Below, piece by piece: positions 1,788 to 11,115 of a DNA stretch of 11,115 nucleotides. Origin of the DNA: Methylobacterium sp. Lineage in GTDB: Bacteria > Pseudomonadota > Alphaproteobacteria > Rhizobiales > Beijerinckiaceae. Numbering within the stretch: the first letter of the stretch is position 1; the number at the start of each line of letters is the position of its first letter. The stretch is taken from positions 1 to 11,115 of the forward strand of contig JADCCH010000130.1 of NCBI GenBank assembly GCA_020252865.1. Direction: 5' to 3'. The position numbers and the translations under genes are program-made. The notes beneath the pieces are model-generated. The model worked only from the letters and a program-made list of their open reading frames with translations, searched no databases and was not told where the DNA came from.

Positions 1788-2993
1788 TCATCGGCGCAAG
1801 GTGATGCGGGCGCCATCCGCGAGCCGATCACTGGGGTGGAGCACGATTTGCTGGCCTGCGCCGAGGCCAGAGAGAACCTGCGCCTCGCGCAGGTTCCTTT
1901 CGCCGATCTCGACGGGATGAAGCTTGGCGCGCCCTTGCTCCACCACATAGGTTGCCCAACGGTCCTTGTGCCGGAACAGGGCGCCAAGGGGGATGGAGAC
2001 GACATCTTCCCCATGCCAGACAGAAATGCGGACAATCACACGAAATCCATGCCCCAGGCGCCGGAAGCGATCCGGCGGCTCGAGCAGATCAAGAACGACC
2101 TTGACCCTCTGCTCCTCGATCCCCAGGGCGGAAACCTTCGTGAAGCCGGATGGTTCGATCCGGGCCACACGGGCTGTCAGCGCACCGTCTCCACCCCAGT
2201 TCTCGATGCGCGCATTCCCGCCTTCCGCGACCCGCAGCGCATCGCGGGAGACAAGGTCTACCGCGATCTCCAGATCGTCGGTATTGCCGATTTCGAGCAG
2301 CAACTGGCCGGGCTGGACGACCTGCGCGCTTTCGACCGCAAGACGCAGCACGCGACCGCTCTCGGGTGCCCGAACCTCGATGCAGCAGGGATTGCGGCCA
2401 GGGGCGTCTTCCCCGGGCTGAAGCCGCAGGGCCTGCGCCTGGTCGAATTCGTGGCGGCGCAAATCCAGCGTGGCCGAGGTGCTTGCGAGCGCGGCTTCCG
2501 CCGTGTCGACCGCGAGAAGGGCCTGCTGATGCGCCCGTTCGGTCACTGCCTGGCGGGCGAGAAGGGTATGCGAGCGCTGCAATTCCGCCCGCGCGAATTC
2601 CAGCTGCGACCTTGCCTGCCGCATCTGGGCATCCGCCAGTTCCACGGCGGCTCGCGCGGCTTCGACCGCGGCCTCCTGGACCTGAAGCGACCGGAAGTCG
2701 AGCAGCGAGGGATCGACCGGCTCGATGCGGGCGACAATGGTCTCGTCCCTGATCACCGCATCCCCGGTCCTGAGTTGCGAGCGGCGGACCTTGCCGAGCA
2801 GGGGCGCCGAGACGGTGTAGACATTCCGCACGCGCGAGATGCCCTCATCCTCGACCGTCACCTCCATCGGGCCGCGTGAGATGACATGCACATCCACCGG
2901 CACGGGCTGGGGCCAGAGCGCCCATATGCCCGCCGCTGCGAGAGCCAGTCCGATCGCGGCGACGGGCAGCGTGCGTGTCCAGTTCGGGGCCAT
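1788..2993 (-). CDS. HlyD/MacA-like periplasmic adaptor (membrane fusion protein) of an ABC exporter
   Basis: The 401-residue adaptor would link an inner-membrane ABC transporter to an outer-membrane channel. An N-terminal anchor spans about residues 9-27 (LPVAAIGLALAAAGIWALW). A first barrel/lipoyl half follows (about 58-92, with VSAPLLGKVRRSQLRTGDAV), then an alanine- and glutamine-rich coiled-coil hairpin (about 100-195). The second lipoyl half is at about 205-235 (VRAPESGRVLRLAVESAQVV) and the beta-barrel and membrane-proximal part runs to the end. There is no lipobox cysteine, so it is anchored by the helix rather than by lipid. The ATG at 2991-2993 follows the permease stop after three bases and has GGGAG (3000-3004) six bases upstream. 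The order ATPase, permease, adaptor resembles DevBCA and MacAB systems. No TolC-like partner is in the window and the substrate is unknown. Confidence 0.9.
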   Translation of the reverse strand: MAPNWTRTLPVAAIGLALAAAGIWALWPQPVPVDVHVISRGPMEVTVEDEGISRVRNVYTVSAPLLGKVRRSQLRTGDAVIRDETIVARIEPVDPSLLDFRSLQVQEAAVEAARAAVELADAQMRQARSQLEFARAELQRSHTLLARQAVTERAHQQALLAVDTAEAALASTSATLDLRRHEFDQAQALRLQPGEDAPGRNPCCIEVRAPESGRVLRLAVESAQVVQPGQLLLEIGNTDDLEIAVDLVSRDALRVAEGGNARIENWGGDGALTARVARIEPSGFTKVSALGIEEQRVKVVLDLLEPPDRFRRLGHGFRVIVRISVWHGEDVVSIPLGALFRHKDRWATYVVEQGRAKLHPVEIGERNLREAQVLSGLGAGQQIVLHPSDRLADGARITLRR

Positions 2994-2996
2994 GCC

Positions 2997-5357
2997 TCAC
3001 TCCCGCGTTTTCAGCACTGCGACAAGGTCCAGCCCGTCGATCCGCCGCCGCACCACCAGCGCCGAAAGAAGCGCCGCGGCGATCACCACAAGGCTCGCAA
3101 ACCCATAGGCTTCGCGCCCGACCACCAGCGGCACGCGATAAAGCTCGCTGGAAAACCCGAGCGCCATGCCGGCGGCAAAGCCGTAGCCGATCGCCCAGCC
3201 CAGAGGCTGCGCCACCAGGACGATGATCGCGATCTCGCCGATGAGCAGGCCGGAGACCTCCCCCCGCGTGAAGCCCAGCACACGCAGGCTCGCCATTTCA
3301 TGCCCCTGCTCGGAAAGGGTGATGCGCGCGACATTGTAGACAACGCCGAAGGCGATCGTCGCGGCCAGGCTCACATAGATCGTGACCATGGTCAGAAGGT
3401 TCTGCGCCAGGGTGTCCCGGAATTGCCGGAGGGAGACGCGCTGGAGCGCGATGAAGCTCGCCTTGGGCAATTGCTTGAGCCTTTCGAACAGTTCGGACTG
3501 CGCGGCGGCATCATAGCGCACATGAACGCCGCTGATGAGATCAGGCTCGCGCATGATCCGGTTCAGCGCATCGAGGTTCATGAAGGCCGTGAGGCCCAGA
3601 TAGCCCTGGATCACGGTCGTGACGGGCACGAGAACCACGCGACGATCCCTTTCGAGAAGCTCCACCTCGACCACATCGCCCGGCCTCGCGCGCAGGATGC
3701 CGGCCAGGGCATCGGAGAGAGCAATTCCGGGCCCATCGAGCGCGGCAACCCGGAACTCCCGATCCAGCACGCGGCTCAATCGTGCATCGGGCGGCTTGCC
3801 GGCAAGCGCGACGCGCCGATGCAGCGGACCATGGCGCAATTCGACGGGCACGATGCGATAGGGCTCCGCCGCGAGGATCGCGGGCAGCCGCGCGACATCC
3901 TGCAGGGACCGACTGGGCTGCTCCTGCGCGAAACTGATGGTCGCATCCTGGCGCTCGGAGCGGTGAAAGGTTGCGTCGATCATGAATTCGCTTGCCTCGA
4001 AAACCCACAGCGTCCCGGTCAGGATCGCCGTGGAAAGGGCGATCCCGATGATGGCGGAAGCGGTTCGCAACGGCCAGCGCAGCAGGTGCCGAAGCACCAT
4101 GCGAAGGCTGCCGGGGAGCCGGACCGCAAAGCGGAAACCGGAAAACATGCGGTGATAGGCTGGCGGCTCGGGTGGCGACATGGCCACTGCCGGGGGAAGG
4201 CGCATGGCCTCGAGCAACACCCGGATGGCACCGGCCAGACCGGAACCCAGCCCCGCCGCGGCGCCGATCAGGTAGGTCTCAGGATCCATCCGGAAGATCA
4301 GGAACGGGAAGTGGAAGAAATCCGCATAGAGGCGGGCCGCCCCACGCCCGAGCCATGTTCCGACAATCGCGCCGATGAGGATGCCGGATACCGCAATGAC
4401 CGCGACAAACTTCAGGTAATGCGAAAGAATGGCCGCGCCGGAATATCCAACCGCCTTCAACAGGCCGATCTGCTGGCGCTCGAGCGCGATCAGGCGGGCG
4501 AGGGTCATGTTCACCAGCAGGGCCGCGGCAATCAGGAAGATCGGCGGCGTGATGCGGCTCATCGCGCGCAGTTGCAGCAGCTCGGCATCGAGGAAGGCAT
4601 GCGAGGTCTGGTCCTTGCGTCCGTAGGCGCCTCGGCCGCCATAGCGGGCGAGCATGGCGTCGATCCGTTCGATGACACTCGCCTGCGAGGCGCCGAGTCC
4701 CAGTTTCAGGTGCAGGCTCGAAAAGGCGCCCTCGAGATCGTAAGCCGCCGCCAATGCGCGCTCGCGCATCCAGATGATGCCGAAGCGCCTGTCATCCGGC
4801 ATCAGGTCCCAGGGGCCGACGGCGTAGATGAATTCCGGCGAGAGGGCGACCCCCACCACGAGAAGCGACCGCTTCCGGCCGTTCAGGATCGCCTCGAAGC
4901 TGGAGCCGGGACCGAAGCCATGCGCCCGGGCGAAGGGCTCGCTGATGACCACTTCCCGATCCGCGCCGGGCTGGGGCTCCCGGCCCTGGCGGATTGTCAG
5001 CAGATTGAGCCGCTGTTCGGCGAGATCGGGCAGCGAGACAAAGAGCCCGGAAGCCGGGGCCTCCATTCCGGGTATGGAGAGCAGGGCGATCTTCTCGATG
5101 CGGGGTTCGACAGCCTGAAGGCCGGGAATGCCGGCGATTTCCTCCGCCAGCGCGCGCGGCGCGCGCGTCACCTGCGCGAAGACATCTGCAAAGCGGTTGC
5201 GCTCGTAATAGGCGTTCCGGGTTTCGTTCAGGGAGGCATAGGTCCCCACGCCAAGCACCAGGGTCGCGACCCCGGAAGCCATCACGAAGGCAATCGCCAG
5301 GACCTGCGGCCAGAGCCTCAGGATGTCGCGCAGGAGCTTGCGGTCGAGGACGGACAC
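2997..5357 (-). CDS. ABC transporter permease with two FtsX domains
   Basis: The 786-residue permease consists of two repeats, each a periplasmic MacB-type domain plus an FtsX-type membrane domain. The first helix is at about 18-41. The first periplasmic domain covers about 50-265, followed by three helices at about 271-292, 316-338 and 362-384. A fifth helix lies at about 432-453, the second periplasmic domain at about 460-650, and three helices at about 655-678, 704-735 and 751-770. FtsX-type turns are visible after the first helix of each trio: [20 protein letters not shown] (298-317) and [20 protein letters not shown] (689-708). The fused double layout gives a complete transmembrane unit in one chain. 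The start is GTG (5355-5357), three bases after the ATPase stop, with no strong ribosome site, so translational coupling is likely. Relatives move lipids, lipoproteins, glycolipids or drugs; the substrate here is not shown. Confidence 0.9.
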
Positions 5358-5360
5358 GCT

Positions 5361-6083
5361 TCACCAGCTGACTTCCGAGGCCGCTCGCCGGCGCTCGTTG
5401 CGGATGCTCGATGCGATCCGGCCATCGGCGAACCGAACCACGCGATCGGCAATGTCCTGGATCGCGGCATTATGGGTGATGACGATCGTCGTCGTGCCCA
5501 GTTCGGCATTCGAGGCCGTGAGCGCCTCGAGGACACGAATGCCGGTGCGGGAATCAAGCGCGCCGGTCGGCTCGTCGCAGAGCAGCACATCCGGCCGCTT
5601 GGCAATCGCACGCGCGATGGCGACACGCTGCTGCTCCCCGCCGGAGAGCTCGGCGGGGAAATGATCCAGACGATTGCCAAGGTCGACGAGGCCGAGCGCA
5701 TCCTCCGGGCGCATCGGGTTCCGCGCGATCTCCGTCACGAGCTGCACATTCTCCCGGGCGGTCAGGCTGGGCACAAGATTGTAGAACTGGAAGACGAAGC
5801 CGACATGGTCACGGCGATAGAGCGTGAGCTCGCGCTCGTTCATCCGCGTGAGGTCGTGATCCTTGAACCAGGCCTCGCCGGAGGTCGGCGTGTCAAGCCC
5901 GCCAATGATGTTGAGGAAGGTGGATTTGCCGGAGCCCGACGGCCCGAGGATCACCACGAACTCGCCCGCGCGCGCTTCGAAATCGACGCCGCGCAGGGCG
6001 TGAACCTCGACATCGCCGGACCGATAGACCTTCGCGAGGCCCGCAATCCGGAAAACCGGTTGTTGGTTTGCTTCTGCCGCCAT
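5361..6083 (-). CDS. ABC transporter ATP-binding protein (MacB/LolD/DevA type)
   Basis: The 240-residue ATPase would power the adjacent FtsX-type permease. All catalytic motifs are present: Walker [10 protein letters not shown] (47-55), Q-loop Gln99 in [10 protein letters not shown], signature [16 protein letters not shown] (146-161), Walker B VLLCDE ending in Glu171, and H-loop His204 in VITHN. The [16 protein letters not shown] stretch is typical of the MacB/LolD/FtsE group. I chose the ATG at 6081-6083 because the family fold begins eight residues later ([12 protein letters not shown]). ATGs at 6140 and 6134 and a TTG at 6197 are in frame. The TTG lies inside the FNR-like palindrome and the region 6084-6197 has no family similarity, so the longest form is unlikely; the 6140 start (259 residues) remains possible. 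It is the first gene of the leftward exporter operon. Confidence 0.9.
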
Positions 6084-6181
6084 CGGCTCCAACGCTTCTC
6101 TCTCGGATCGAGCCTCTCCGCAGGCTGCCGGCATGGCCATTCCGCCCGATGCGTCAGAAGGCCACCGGGGCCGCCCTTGCG

Positions 6182-6199
6182 CCTTGACAGGCGTCAAGG
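6182..6199. promoter_or_regulatory. FNR/FixK/ANR-type binding site (18-base palindrome) between divergent genes
   Basis: The sequence CCTTGACAGGCGTCAAGG has perfect 7-base arms around a 4-base spacer. Its core TTGAC-N4-GTCAA fits the TTGA-N6-TCAA pattern recognised by the CRP/FNR group (FNR, FnrL, FixK, ANR). The centre (6190.5) is about 42 bases upstream of a start site predicted from the CATGAT hexamer at 6221-6226, the usual class II activator position. It could also serve the leftward ABC operon, but no convincing -10 is visible on that side. It could in principle form an RNA hairpin, but no T run follows it. Confidence 0.7.
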
Positions 6200-6220
6200 A
6201 GCCTCGCGCCCTTGCGGGTG

Positions 6221-6226
6221 CATGAT
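6221..6226 (+). promoter_or_regulatory. Possible -10 element for the P-type ATPase transcript
   Basis: CATGAT matches TATAAT at four of six positions and lies in the most A/T-rich part of the divergent region. It begins about 30 bases downstream of the centre of the FNR-like palindrome, as expected for an activator-dependent promoter without a normal -35. Transcription would start near 6232-6233, leaving a leader of about 57 bases before the ATG at 6290. Confidence 0.45.
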
Positions 6227-6289
6227 AGACTGATATCGGGGGTTTGCGAACTCGCAGCCCGTTCCTCGGATCGGAGTGGAACTTTCGGG

Positions 6290-8842
6290 ATGGAAAGGCC
6301 GTCGGGTCTGAGTTCGGAGGATGCGCGCCGGCAGCTTGCCCTTGATGGCTTCAACGAATTGCCGAAGGCCGGCGCCCGGAGCTTCTGGCGTGTCTGCATC
6401 GAAGTCCTGCATGAGCCGATGCTGGGGCTGCTGCTCGCCGGAGGCCTCGTCTACCTGGCGCTCGGCGATCGCGCCGAGGCGTTGATCCTGCTCTGCTTCG
6501 CGATGCTCTCCCTTTCCATCACCGTCGTGCAGGAAATCCGGACGGAGCGCGTTCTGGAGGCGCTGCGGGATCTCACCAGCCCTCGGGCGCTGGTCATTCG
6601 GGACGGGCAGCGCCAGCGCATCCCGGGCCGGGAGGTTGTGCGCGGTGACCTCATCCTGCTGGCCGAGGGTGATCGTGTTCCCGCCGATGCCGATCTGGTC
6701 GAGGTGACCCATCTCGAACTGGACGAATCCCTGCTGACCGGAGAATCGGTCCCCGTCCGCAAGCGCGTGGCCGGCAGCGGAGCGGAGCCCCCGCCGCGAC
6801 CGCCCGGCGAAAGCGAGCATGCGAGGGTCTATTCCGGTTCTCTCGTGGTCCGCGGATCGGGGCTGGCGACGGTGTATGCCACAGGCCCGACGAGCGAGAT
6901 CGGCCGGATTGGCGCCTCGCTCGCGAAGCTCGAGGGCGAGGCCCCGCGCCTCCGGGCGGAAACGCGCCGCCTGGTGAGGGTCGCGGCCTTCCTGGGCATC
7001 ATGGTCAGCCTTGTTGTCGTTCTTCTGTATGGCATGACTCGCGGAGACTGGCTGGCCGCGCTCCTTTCCGGCATCGCGCTCGGAATGGCGATGCTGCCGG
7101 AGGAATTCCCGGTCGTGCTGACGGTTTTCCTCGCCATGGGAGCCTGGCGGATCTCGAAGGCGCGCGTGCTCACCCGTCGCAGCGCCGCGATCGAGACCCT
7201 GGGCGCCACGACCGTGCTGTGCACCGACAAGACCGGCACCCTGACCGAAAACCGGATGTCGATCGTCGAGTTGTGGAATGCGGGCGGAGCATCGCGTCGC
7301 CTGGGCCGGGAGGAGACCGTCGGGACGCTCGAGCCCGAAGATGCGGACATCATCCGGATCGGGCGCCTGGCAAGCGCTCCCGTGCCCTTCGATCCCATGG
7401 AACGGGCGTTCCTCGCCTGTGCCGGGCCTGCGGCCGAAGGCGAAAATCGCCTCGTGCACAGCTTCGGGCTGACGCCGCATTTGCTCGCGATGACCCAGAT
7501 ATGGGAGCGGGAAGATCGTCGCACGAAACTCGCGGCGGCCAAGGGCGCGCCCGAGGCGATCATGCAGCTTTGCGCGATCGACGAGGGTCGGAAAGCCGAG
7601 ATTTCGGCCGCGGTGGATGCAATGGCGGCGCGGGGCTTGCGTGTTCTCGGCGTCGCGGGGGGTGAATGGGAGGGGCCGGAACTCCCTCATGCCCAGACCG
7701 GGATTCCCTTCGCCTTCCTCGGCCTGGTCGGCCTTGCCGATCCCTTGCGTGCCAGCGTGCCGGATGCCATTCGGGATTGCCGGCGGGCGGGCATCCGCGT
7801 CGTCATGATCACGGGCGACTATCCCGTAACCGCGCGCGAGATCGCGCGCCAGGCGGGGCTGGAGCATGGCGTGGTCGTGACCGGCGCCGAGTTCGAGCGG
7901 CTCGACGATGCCGCCTTGCAGCGCATCATGCGCGAGACCGCGGTTTTCGCGCGCATCTCGCCCGAGCAGAAGCTCCGTATCGTCGAGGCCTTCAAGGCGC
8001 AGGGCGAAATCGTCGCCATGACCGGGGACGGGGTGAACGACGCGCCCTCGCTGAAGGCGGCCCATATCGGCGTCGCGATGGGTGGGCGAGGCACGGATGT
8101 CGCACGCGAAGCCTCGTCGATCGTTCTGCTGGACGATGATTTCGGTTCGATCGTCGAGGCAATCCGGCTTGGCCGGCGCATCTATGACAACCTTCGCAAG
8201 GCAATGGGGTTCATCATCGCCGTGCATGTTCCCATTGCCGGGATGGCGTTGCTCCCTCTCGTTCTGGGAATGCCGATCCTTTTCACGCCCATTCACATCG
8301 CATTCCTGGAAATGGTCATTGATCCGGTCAGTTCGCTGGCTTTCGAAGCCGAGGAGGAGGAGGCGGATATCATGGCTCGGCCGCCTCGCAAGCCGGAGGA
8401 ACGGCTTGTCTCGGTTTCCCTGATCGGCTGGACCGGTCTGTGCGGAACGGTCGCCTTCCTCCCCGTGGCCGCATTCGCCTGGCTTGGCGCCCGACATGGC
8501 ATGGCCCCGGATCAATTGCGTGCGCTGGTTTTCGTGACTCTCGTGCTGAATGTCATCAGCCTGATCTTCGTCTTTCGGGCGTTTGGGGCCTCGCTGCGCG
8601 GGGCATTCCTGCGTCCGAACCGCACGCTCTTCAGCGTGCTGGCGGCCATTGCCGGCCTGCTCGCGCTGACCCTGCTATGGCCGCAAGCCCGCGCGGTGTT
8701 TCGCTTCGCACCCCTGCAGGCCGAAGATCTGCTGCTCGTGGCATGGAGTGCGCTCGCTGTGCTCCTTGGCCTGGAATGGGTGAAAAAGCTGAAAAACCCG
8801 GTGATCGGGCGATCCCGCGCCGCCACGAAAGGACTGACATAG
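6290..8842 (+). CDS. P-type cation-transporting ATPase (type II-like)
   Basis: The 850-residue pump has the full P-type set: TGES (150-153) in the actuator domain, PEEFP (270-274) in helix M4, the phosphorylation motif DKTGT with Asp313, KGAPE from Lys418 in the nucleotide domain, TGDYP (508-512) and TGDGVNDAP (578-586) in the hinge. About ten helices are visible (two before TGES, M3-M4, then six after the hinge), the type II layout also seen in calcium pumps. There is no N-terminal CxxC heavy-metal domain and no CPC motif. M4 has PEEFP instead of the calcium-pump PEGLP. M5 carries His646-Val-Pro and M6 carries Glu674-x3-Asp678, so the ion cannot be assigned by analogy. An acidic run EAEEEEAD follows M6. 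The ATG at 6290 sits just before the family region and downstream of the predicted promoter; an in-frame TTG at 6212 is rejected. Confidence 0.92.
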
Positions 8843-8904: not shown

Positions 8905-9978
8905 ATGAAGAAGATGAAAGCTGCGGTCTTTGTCGAGCCCGGTCGCATCGTTCTCGATGAAAAGCCCATTCCCGATATCGGGCCGACCGATGCCCTGATC
9001 CGCATCACGATGACGACGATCTGCGGGACCGACATCCATATCCTGAAGGGAGAGTATCCCGTGGAAAGCGGCCTCACGGTGGGGCATGAGCCCGTCGGGG
9101 TCATCGAGAGGCTCGGCGCGGAAGTGAAAGGCTTTCAGGAGGGCCAGCGCGTGATCTGCGGAGCGATTACGCCAGGCGGGCATTCCCATGCCTGCCTGTG
9201 CGGCTGCCATTCGCAGGACGGGGCCGGAACGCGTCACGGCTGGAAACCCATGGGCGGCTGGAGGCTCGGCAACACGATCGATGGCTGCCAGGCGGAATAT
9301 GTCCGCATTCCCGATGCAATGGCCAACCTCGCGGAAGTGCCGTCGCCCCTGACCGACGAGCAGGTGCTGATGTGCCCCGATATCATGTCGACCGGATTCA
9401 GCGGCGCGGAACGCGGGGATGTCCAGATCGGCGATGTCGTGGCGATCTTCGCACAGGGGCCGATCGGGCTCTGCGCGACAGCCGGCGCCCGGCTTCGGGG
9501 CGCGAGCCGCATCATCGTGGTCGACATGCTGCCGGTCAGGCTGGCCGTGGCGAAAGGGATGGGCGCGGATATCGTGATCAATGCCCGCGAAACCGACCCC
9601 GTCCAGGCCATCATGGCCGCAACCGATGGCCGGGGTGTGGATGTCGCGATCGAGGCACTGGGAACGCAGGCGACTTTCGAGGCCGCTTTGCGTGTGCTGA
9701 GGCCAGGAGGCACGCTTTCCAGCCTGGGCGTGTATTCCAGCGATCTGACCATACCGCTGGGTGCCTTTGCCGCGGGCCTCGGCGATCACCGGATCATCAC
9801 GACCCTCTGCCCGGGGGGCAAGGAGCGCATGCGGCGCCTCATGGCGATCGTCGCAGCCGAACGGCTTGATCTCACCCCGCTCGTCACGCATCGTTTCTCG
9901 CTGGACGAGATCGAGAAGGCCTATGAGCTCTTCTCCCATCAGCGCGACGGGGTCATCAAGATTGCCATCACACCCTGA
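8905..9978 (+). CDS. Zinc-type medium-chain alcohol dehydrogenase, NAD(P)-dependent
   Basis: The 357-residue enzyme would oxidise an alcohol or reduce an aldehyde or ketone in the cytoplasm. Catalytic-zinc features are Cys40 in TTICGTDIH and the GHE motif with His61-Glu62. The Rossmann fold has FAQGPIGLCA (AQGPIG at 183-188, Ala in place of the first Gly) and IIVVD ending in Asp207, suggesting NAD preference. The structural-zinc lobe is altered: where relatives have four spaced cysteines this protein reads GGHSHACLCGCHSQDG (about 92-107), so the usual structural zinc is probably absent. GNTIDGCQAEYVRIPDA and DEQVLMCPDIMSTGFSGAE are typical of a secondary-alcohol dehydrogenase-like subgroup. 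The ATG at 8905 follows AGGGAG (8891-8896) by eight bases. It lies 62 bases after the P-type ATPase and 34 before a PHA-like hydrolase, so it is probably co-transcribed. The substrate is not evident. Confidence 0.9.
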   Translation: MKKMKAAVFVEPGRIVLDEKPIPDIGPTDALIRITMTTICGTDIHILKGEYPVESGLTVGHEPVGVIERLGAEVKGFQEGQRVICGAITPGGHSHACLCGCHSQDGAGTRHGWKPMGGWRLGNTIDGCQAEYVRIPDAMANLAEVPSPLTDEQVLMCPDIMSTGFSGAERGDVQIGDVVAIFAQGPIGLCATAGARLRGASRIIVVDMLPVRLAVAKGMGADIVINARETDPVQAIMAATDGRGVDVAIEALGTQATFEAALRVLRPGGTLSSLGVYSSDLTIPLGAFAAGLGDHRIITTLCPGGKERMRRLMAIVAAERLDLTPLVTHRFSLDEIEKAYELFSHQRDGVIKIAITP

Positions 9979-10015
9979 TCCGACCTGAACCGCCATTCGC
10001 CGGCATGGAAGCATG

Positions 10016-11115
10016 ATGAACCCCTGGGAGATCTGGTTCTGGCCGTGGTTCGCGCATTCCGGCGGTGCGGCGAGCGAGGAGCGCGCGGAACCCGCGGATG
10101 CGGTGGATGGCGCGCGCTTCGTGCCGGAAGGCGAGTGGACGACACGCGGGCGCGTCGTGCTCGAACTGCATGAACTTCGCCTGCGAGATTTCTCACGATC
10201 CCGAACGGGGCAAGCCGCGGTTCTGGTCACGCCCTTCGCGCTGCACGATGCGATCCTTGCGGATCTCGCCCCCGGACACAGCCTGGTTCAGACCTTGCTT
10301 GACCATGGCTGCAAGCGCCTGTTCCTGGTCGAATGGGCATCAGCGACCAAGGAGAGCCGCTACCAGACGATCGATAGCCAGCTGGCCGCGCTCCATGTCG
10401 CGATCGAGGAGATCGGCGGTCCGGTGGATCTCATCGGGCTTTGCCAGGGCGGCTGGCTGTCGCTGATCTACGCGGCACGATTTCCGGGAAAGATCGGTCG
10501 CCTCGTGCTCGCCGGCGCACCCGTCGACTTCGCCGCTTCCGCCTTCGCGGCGGCCACGGGGGTCGCCGCGGCTTTTCTGCTCGATGCCGTGAAACGGGGC
10601 GGAGATGGTGTGATCCGGGGGGCCGACCTGCTCGCCCTCTGGGTGGGAGCTGCGGACCGCATGGCCATTGCGATGCAGGCCTTGCAGATCACCGGCCCGG
10701 ACCGGGAAACAGGGGGGCAACGGGCGCTGCGGAACTTCCTGCGCTGGCATGAGCGGACGCTGGACTTGCCGGAGGCCTATTTCACGGAGGTTCTCACCTT
10801 GCTCTACCAGGAAAACAGGCTGGCGCGAGGCCAGATGACCGCGCTGGGCAGGATAATCGCGCCCGATATGGTCGATTGTCCCGTCGCGCTCCTGGCCGGG
10901 GAAAGCGACAGGGTTGCCCCCCCTGACGAGGTCTTCGCAGCCGCCAGACTTGTGGGGGGAGAAGCCTCGAGGCTGCTGTTGCGCGAGGCCCGATCCACGC
11001 ATCTCGCTCTCTTCATGGGGAGAGACACCCTGGCCACGGAATGGCCCGCGATCGCGCGCTGGCTGCTGGCAGGCCGCAGCGAAGCACGGAAAGAGCGAGC
11101 GCCGGGGACACAGAC
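10016..11115 (+). CDS. Alpha/beta hydrolase with PHA-synthase-like Cys nucleophile; 3' end not in window
   Basis: The frame is open from 10016 to the right edge (about 366 residues) and the fold looks almost complete. The nucleophile elbow is GLCQGGW, with Cys143, the G-x-C-x-G-G form of PHA synthases rather than the serine of ordinary lipases. The acid is probably Asp298 in LLAGESDRVAPPDEV, and the base His329 in STHLALFMG. Upstream blocks VTPFALHDAILADLAPGHSL and TLLDHGCKRLFLVEW also resemble PHA polymerase-like proteins, but the PhaC N-terminal domain is missing: only about 70 residues precede this core. It may be a PHA synthase-like or depolymerase-like enzyme acting on polyester or acyl-thioesters. 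GGAAG (10007-10011) precedes the ATG at 10016 by four bases and another ATG at 10013 by one. It lies 37 bases after the dehydrogenase stop, in the same direction. The exact activity is uncertain. Confidence 0.8.
   Translation, partial: MNPWEIWFWPWFAHSGGAASEERAEPADAVDGARFVPEGEWTTRGRVVLELHELRLRDFSRSRTGQAAVLVTPFALHDAILADLAPGHSLVQTLLDHGCKRLFLVEWASATKESRYQTIDSQLAALHVAIEEIGGPVDLIGLCQGGWLSLIYAARFPGKIGRLVLAGAPVDFAASAFAAATGVAAAFLLDAVKRGGDGVIRGADLLALWVGAADRMAIAMQALQITGPDRETGGQRALRNFLRWHERTLDLPEAYFTEVLTLLYQENRLARGQMTALGRIIAPDMVDCPVALLAGESDRVAPPDEVFAAARLVGGEASRLLLREARSTHLALFMGRDTLATEWPAIARWLLAGRSEARKERAPGTQ

Follow-up and report, generated by a model that had tools for sequence, protein, structure and literature searches.

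A predicted FNR/FixK-type box before a P-type cation pump gene in a Methylobacterium contig, and its recurrence before some related pumps

The window analysed here, a stretch of 11,115 nucleotides from Methylobacterium sp., is one whole contig (C36) of a fragmented genome (G000; 2.37 Mb in 392 contigs, 78% complete), and it raises the question of which genes are controlled by a palindrome lying between two divergent groups of genes, and in answer to which signal. By Pfam, the minus strand carries six genes: one for the N-terminal part of PHA synthase (PhaC; 3-701, truncated at the contig end), a baeRF family 12 or host-attachment-like gene (735-1274), a phasin gene (Phasin_2; 1271-1690) and, together at 1788-6083, the genes of an exporter, that is, an HlyD-like adaptor (1788-2993), an FtsX/MacB-like permease (2997-5357) and an ABC ATPase (5361-6083). 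They are followed on the plus strand by a P-type cation ATPase of the P2 type (6290-8842), a zinc-binding alcohol dehydrogenase-like gene (8905-9978) and a PHA-synthase/hydrolase-like gene (10013-11113) which reaches the contig end; these three are proposed to form one operon, and the phasin, host-attachment-like and PhaC genes another. The best NCBIfam match of the ATPase is a PMR1-type calcium pump, at 425.6 bits and below the cut-off of 798.3. The initial annotation had described the 206-bp region between the two groups (6084-6289) as the only divergent gap, and the gene order agrees with this.

The palindrome, CCTTGACAGGCGTCAAGG, lies exactly at 6182-6199 as annotated, with perfect 7-base arms (CCTTGAC and GTCAAGG) and a 4-base centre (AGGC), and its core TTGACAGGCGTCAA (6184-6197, centred on 6190.5) fits TTGAY-N4-RTCAA exactly, the form expected of an FNR/FixK-type box. 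The 18-base pattern of the palindrome was found in none of 200 shuffles. The window has two copies of the looser TTGA-N6-TCAA, whereas its shuffles average 0.08 and none of 200 reached two; the other copy (217-230) lies within phaC, is not among the matches in the locus of the nearest genome (G008) and was treated as noise. In G000, TTGAY-N4-RTCAA occurs at 5 sites in 2.37 Mb and the reversed control at none, and from this rate about 0.0004 sites are expected by chance per 206 bp. The annotated claim of rarity is right for this gap, yet there are thousands of gaps in a genome. A score matrix was built from 25 of the 28 peak sequences in Table 2 of PMC2908626, three poor matches being omitted; the main box scores 16.2, lower than 24 of the 25 published Rhodobacter FnrL sites, and its form in G008 scores 18.1, lower than 19 of the 25.

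It is conceivable that the repeat acts as RNA, that is, as a hairpin or terminator, or that TTGACA (6184-6189), which is a perfect -35 hexamer, belongs to a constitutive sigma-70 promoter. The segment 6175-6206 does fold better than its shuffles (-14.8 kcal/mol, z -2.87), but the best fold is in a register other than that of the palindrome, and it weakens in G008 to -10.5 kcal/mol, with the FNR consensus intact there. Moreover, neither an intrinsic terminator (a stem-loop with a T run) nor a sigma-70 pair using this TTGACA with a -10 hexamer 16-18 bp downstream was found in 5900-6500. The hairpin, terminator and constitutive promoter readings were rejected on these grounds, and a role of this kind is scarcely credible.

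Class II FNR sites centre on -41.5, with about 32-33 bp between the box centre and that of the -10. Downstream of the palindrome on the plus strand, the -10-like hexamer CATGAT (6221-6226) is centred 33 bp from the box centre and reads AATGAT in G008, which upholds the class II activator spacing that had been ascribed to it; a second -10-like hexamer, TAGACT, lies 38 bp from the box centre. On the minus strand, in contrast, no hexamer with A at position 2, T at position 6 and at least 3/6 agreement with TATAAT occurs 20-107 bp from the box centre, and the suggestion that the same box activates the exporter was dropped for this reason. That suggestion was not absurd, since an HlyD protein and ABC parts stand in a predicted core FixK list (PMC2908626 Table 1). 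The sole promoter-like match towards the exporter is a sigma-70-like one, TTCGCA-N17-TATCAT (6222-6250, minus strand; 9/12), found once in 5900-6500 (0.1 on average in shuffles) and with both hexamers unchanged in G008. It puts the box just downstream of the start that it predicts, so that a bound regulator could repress the exporter, either in place of activation of the pump or together with it, and some FnrL targets are indeed repressed (PMC2908626 Table 2). This promoter, however, is a consensus match only, the -10 of which shares bases with the proposed -10 of the pump, and the class II spacing recurs before pumps of other genera; repression of the exporter is regarded as very improbable. 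As a separate observation, the match uses the complement of the bases proposed as the -10 of the pump, and with these bases common to both, the two promoters may exclude each other.

Comparison with other genomes supports a box of the FNR/FixK type, at class II spacing, before the pump operon. The pump of G008, the nearest genome, is 96% identical to that of the window. The 206-bp gap aligns to it without indels and with 14 changes, and the box is found at the same place as TTGACAGGCATCAA, with one change: A replaces G at 6193, breaking the palindrome while the R of RTCAA is retained. In the neighbouring genes 5.5-6.8% of third positions differ and the gap is no better conserved; as the gap is thus not unusually conserved, the pair of the window and G008 alone is weak evidence. 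The dehydrogenase gene (8905-9978), intact in the window, is reduced in G008 to its first and last stretches (L040:12746-12972), the interval between pump and hydrolase being 227 bp there and 1170 bp in the window, which may reflect a faulty assembly or a deletion within the G008 gene.

The wider set consisted of 39 pump homologues, 32 of them from the 80 loci of one search (proteobacterial by title or identity) and 7 from another. A box with at most one mismatch was found within 300 bp upstream of 8 of the 39, the G008 record included, the corresponding figures being 30/359 for the other genes of these loci and 354/7800 for stretches taken at random; without G008, the 7 boxed homologues among 38 are a borderline excess over the other genes (Fisher p 0.05). 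The pumps of G003 and G006, which belong to the same genus and are 60-64% identical to that of the window, are among those without a box, and there is no exact box near them. Three of 34 homologues, G008 among them, have the exact box within 400 bp upstream, and 3 of 39 have it within 300 bp; the loci L087 and L115 are outside the set of 39 and inside that of 34, and the rest of the 80 loci are uncounted. Conservation across all pump orthologues consequently failed as a proof, and what had been expected of orthologous loci came true in part, in G008 and in the 7 others with at most one mismatch.

The box might be a functionless consensus match that arose in this gap by chance, and the absence of the box from 31 of the 38 homologues, the third-codon-position rate at which the gap evolves and the low matrix score are what such a match would show. 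Against this stand the expectation given above for a gap of this size and the repetition of both position and -10 spacing before unrelated pumps, and a chance match is considered improbable.

Among the homologues, the position of the box carries more weight than the number of boxes. With the first aligned base of the pump as reference, the G008 box starts at -106, that of an Acetobacteraceae MAG at -109 and the exact box of a Bradyrhizobium MAG at -110; those of three further MAGs follow at -120, -121 and -123, and the remaining two at -151 and -256. Of the 8, 6 lie in the 18-bp band between -106 and -123. Besides G008, this band holds the boxes of five proteobacterial pumps, one exact and four with one mismatch, and three of these pumps have a matching -10. 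With the window counted and G008 left out, there are 8 boxed loci, 6 of them in one 20-bp band; with both left out, there are 7, with 5 in the band. In neither case did any of 400 Markov resamplings, which preserve base and neighbour composition and not promoter features, reach either figure.

The -10 spacing was judged by requiring A at position 2, T at position 6, at least 4/6 agreement with TATAAT and a centre 31-34 bp from the box centre. Such a hexamer is present in 6 of the 9 boxed promoters (8 pump homologues and the window), against a background of 3.1% (313/9945) when every position of these upstream regions is counted. It reads CATGAT in the window and Bradyrhizobium, AATGAT in G008, GATCAT in L073, GATGAT in L131 and TAGAAT in L076, while L070, L074 and L075 have none passing at 31-34 bp. 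When eleven 4-bp bands from 19 to 62 bp were tried, only 35-38 bp held any besides 31-34 bp, in the window and G008. Without these two, the spacing is found in 4 of 7 promoters (binomial p about 3e-5).

Which regulator might read the box was sought in 3 of 16 same-genus genomes (G008, G003 and G006; 99-100% complete), chosen for having the closest pumps. TTGAY-N4-RTCAA outnumbers its reversed control in each of them, by 10 to 1 in G008, 11 to 3 in G003 and 15 to 1 in G006. Together with G000 there are 41 such sites, of which 26 are intergenic, 23 according to a simple gene caller and three by hand (the window site, its twin in G008 and the cco site of G008, which the caller had placed inside a spurious antisense frame); this count is rough because the caller also misread some genes of the window. 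In all three congeners a CRP/FNR-family gene adjoins ccoN of the cbb3 oxidase with a box in between, and the three proteins have Cys-x2-Cys-x7-Cys near the N-terminus, one central cysteine and the helix LGLTIETVSR. In the G008 protein (L162) the cysteines are residues 2, 5, 13 and 101, the last aligning with a cysteine of a solved FNR, and the helix is an E-xx-SR recognition helix. Its best NCBIfam match is FnrL, with 139.7 bits against an equivalog cut-off of 300, so that it is called FnrL-like only. FixK2 of Bradyrhizobium diazoefficiens, by contrast, is not known to have an Fe-S cysteine set.

In G000, at 78% completeness, neither an FnrL-like gene nor a match to PF00325 was found; PF13545 had two matches above its cut-off, one each on C180 and C380. 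On contig C72 the ccoN fragment of this genome starts as early as base 2, so that an adjoining regulator gene would fall in unassembled sequence, a surmise drawn from its absence. Other boxes of the genus precede a MarR-like gene with cydA, in the same arrangement in G000 and G008, and a DUF2189 gene in G008, with what looks by eye like a parallel in G003. The former box (L213:2304-2317 and L186:3612-3625) lies between cydA with the MarR-like gene and a divergent large gene for an Mrp/complex-I-like antiporter. In G003 and G006, furthermore, two boxes about 115 bp apart (L191:3404-3533 and L203:1497-1624) separate a transporter gene from a CRP/FNR-family gene; the transporter is nitrate-transporter-like by eye, and this is perhaps a separate regulatory pair.

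Another member of the CRP/FNR family, of the FixK or DNR/NnrR type or the CRP-like protein on C380, might read a real box, in which case the signal would not be oxygen sensed by an Fe-S cluster. The targets of FNR, FixK and DNR are very similar, according to section 9 of PMC2908626, and further FNR-family genes are present in G003 and G006. The C380 protein, from the window's own genome, is the closest match in G000 to the FnrL-like protein (28% identity), and it has a helix with E-AV-SR and no N-terminal cysteines. G008, however, keeps the box, its FnrL-like protein is alone among its four cyclic-nucleotide-domain proteins in having an E-xx-SR helix (two of the others, L158 and L170, were judged by eye to be without a helix-turn-helix), and a search of these proteins found no counterpart of the C380 protein. 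A reader other than the FnrL-like one is held to be unlikely.

The segment 6182-6199 is thus likely, as judged from comparative sequence evidence, to be an FNR/FixK-type class II activator site serving the P-type ATPase gene and, with it, those of the dehydrogenase and the hydrolase; the initial annotation is supported for this operon and is not supported for activation of the exporter. A dimer of an FNR/FixK-type protein would bind the palindrome, the most likely candidate being an FnrL/FnrN-like regulator with the Fe-S-type cysteine set, as encoded beside ccoN in the congeners and presumably present in the species of the window. Bound at about -41.5 from the predicted start, it would activate in the class II manner a promoter with its -10 near 6221-6226, and low oxygen would raise the transcription of the pump, the zinc dehydrogenase and the hydrolase. 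The pump is probably turned on at low oxygen in this way, an arrangement which would be ordinary in this bacterial group.

The PHA genes had also been suspected of answering to the palindrome. The more probable element in their case is one absent from the initial annotation: a second, weaker FNR-type box with one mismatch, CTGATTCATGTCAA (TTGACATGAATCAG on the minus strand, on which it is placed), lies at 1713-1726 before the phasin gene, and the phasin, host-attachment-like and PHA synthase genes would probably be driven by it in parallel with the pump. It is identical in G008, inside 47 unchanged bases (1709-1755) next to 45 bases (1664-1708) with 11 changes, and its matrix score is 16.2, lower than 24 of 25 FnrL sites. 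The box covers only 14 of the 47 unchanged bases, and another element may be there. TATCAT lies 31 bp from its centre in G008, where the window has CATGGT. A phasin start at 1690 would put a class II transcription start inside the gene; since G008 lacks this ATG, the actual start of phasin may well lie further in. G008 has a third FNR-type box, ATGATCTGTATCAA (L040:2532-2545), preceding the gene for a universal stress protein that adjoins phaC; the contig of the window stops just short of this place. The 20-kb locus of G008 has three boxes with at most one mismatch, against a shuffle mean of 0.89 and with 14 of 200 shuffles reaching three, and this number by itself is not striking.

These boxes have known relatives. 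The FnrL regulon of Rhodobacter sphaeroides (PMC2908626) uses the same 14-bp target as the box of the window, and FnrL was bound in ChIP at, and activated, sites before ccoNOQP, uspA and phbC-fabI. The FnrL sites given there include CTGAT and ATGAT forms, like the phasin box and the stress-gene box of G008, as well as TTGAC-GTCAA forms, but the pump of the window is not among the listed targets, the listed P-type ATPase (RSP0690) being of the heavy-metal type (PMC2908626). In Bradyrhizobium diazoefficiens, phaC2 and genes for a host attachment protein and a universal stress protein depend on FixK2, as does bll4412, which has TTGACCTGCGTCAA, the C/G form as in the box of the window; a P2-type pump was not noticed among the FixK2 targets in the passages at hand (PMC9104804, PMC6515984). 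Control of PHA-synthase, universal stress and host-attachment genes by FnrL or FixK2 is accordingly already published in these sources (PMC2908626, PMC9104804, PMC6515984), and the gain for such genes is incremental. The core FixK regulon predicted for Alphaproteobacteria (PMC2908626 Table 1) also holds a zinc-binding alcohol dehydrogenase and Hsp20 beside the HlyD protein and ABC parts; this regulon is a prediction, matched to the dehydrogenase and exporter of the window by gene type. In Rhizobium leguminosarum bacteroids two cation-transporting ATPases are raised, their regulator being unnamed in the passages at hand (PMC6421345), and PhaR and FixK2 are linked in Bradyrhizobium, in passages silent on the pump of the window (PMC6201568).

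The less ordinary point is the cation pump with a recurrent predicted FNR-type promoter. CtpF of mycobacteria is linked to a hypoxia regulon. As a calcium P-type ATPase, it is a P2-type cation pump associated with low oxygen, as proposed here for the pump of the window, although it belongs to another phylum and another regulator. In the portions of the literature at hand, no paper was recognised as describing an FNR- or FixK-controlled P2-type pump, which does not prove that such a paper is absent. The locus would add an uncultured lineage and a cation pump to the alphaproteobacterial gene set for oxygen limitation, and it supplies a definite promoter for testing.

The exact box was counted 437 times in the roughly 85.3 Mb (rounded sizes) of 17 genomes from the same family or order, and the 20-kb neighbourhoods of their pumps hold 19 boxes against 1.7 expected, about 11 times the genome-wide density, with at least one box in 9 of the 17. 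Twenty neighbourhoods had been taken, namely the first 19 loci after that of the window by score and G021, and the 17 outside the genus were used. Identity to the pump of the window is only 36-39% for twelve of the 17, and the boxes often serve adjoining genes, some lying inside predicted frames. The neighbourhood of the G063 pump (54% identical) has three boxes, with cbb3-like genes (by eye) and genes for a universal stress protein, cytochrome c, a CRP/FNR protein, a PAS histidine kinase and a zinc dehydrogenase. It may tentatively be proposed, as a conjecture on the doubtful side, that FNR/FixK regulators responsive to oxygen repeatedly target one subfamily of alphaproteobacterial P2-type cation pumps, a link so far unremarked, with the box near-fixed before the gene and with ion flux tied to PHA storage at low oxygen.

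The G003 pump (64% identical), although its 20-kb neighbourhood has no exact box and one near-box, TTGAGTTGGATCAA, about 1.2 kb upstream, is found near genes for Hsp20, phasin, a universal stress protein, PhaC, a hydrolase resembling that of the window and an FNR-family protein. The FNR-family gene (L174:1369-2094; helix LGLSLETVCR by eye) adjoins the pump and could encode a local regulator.
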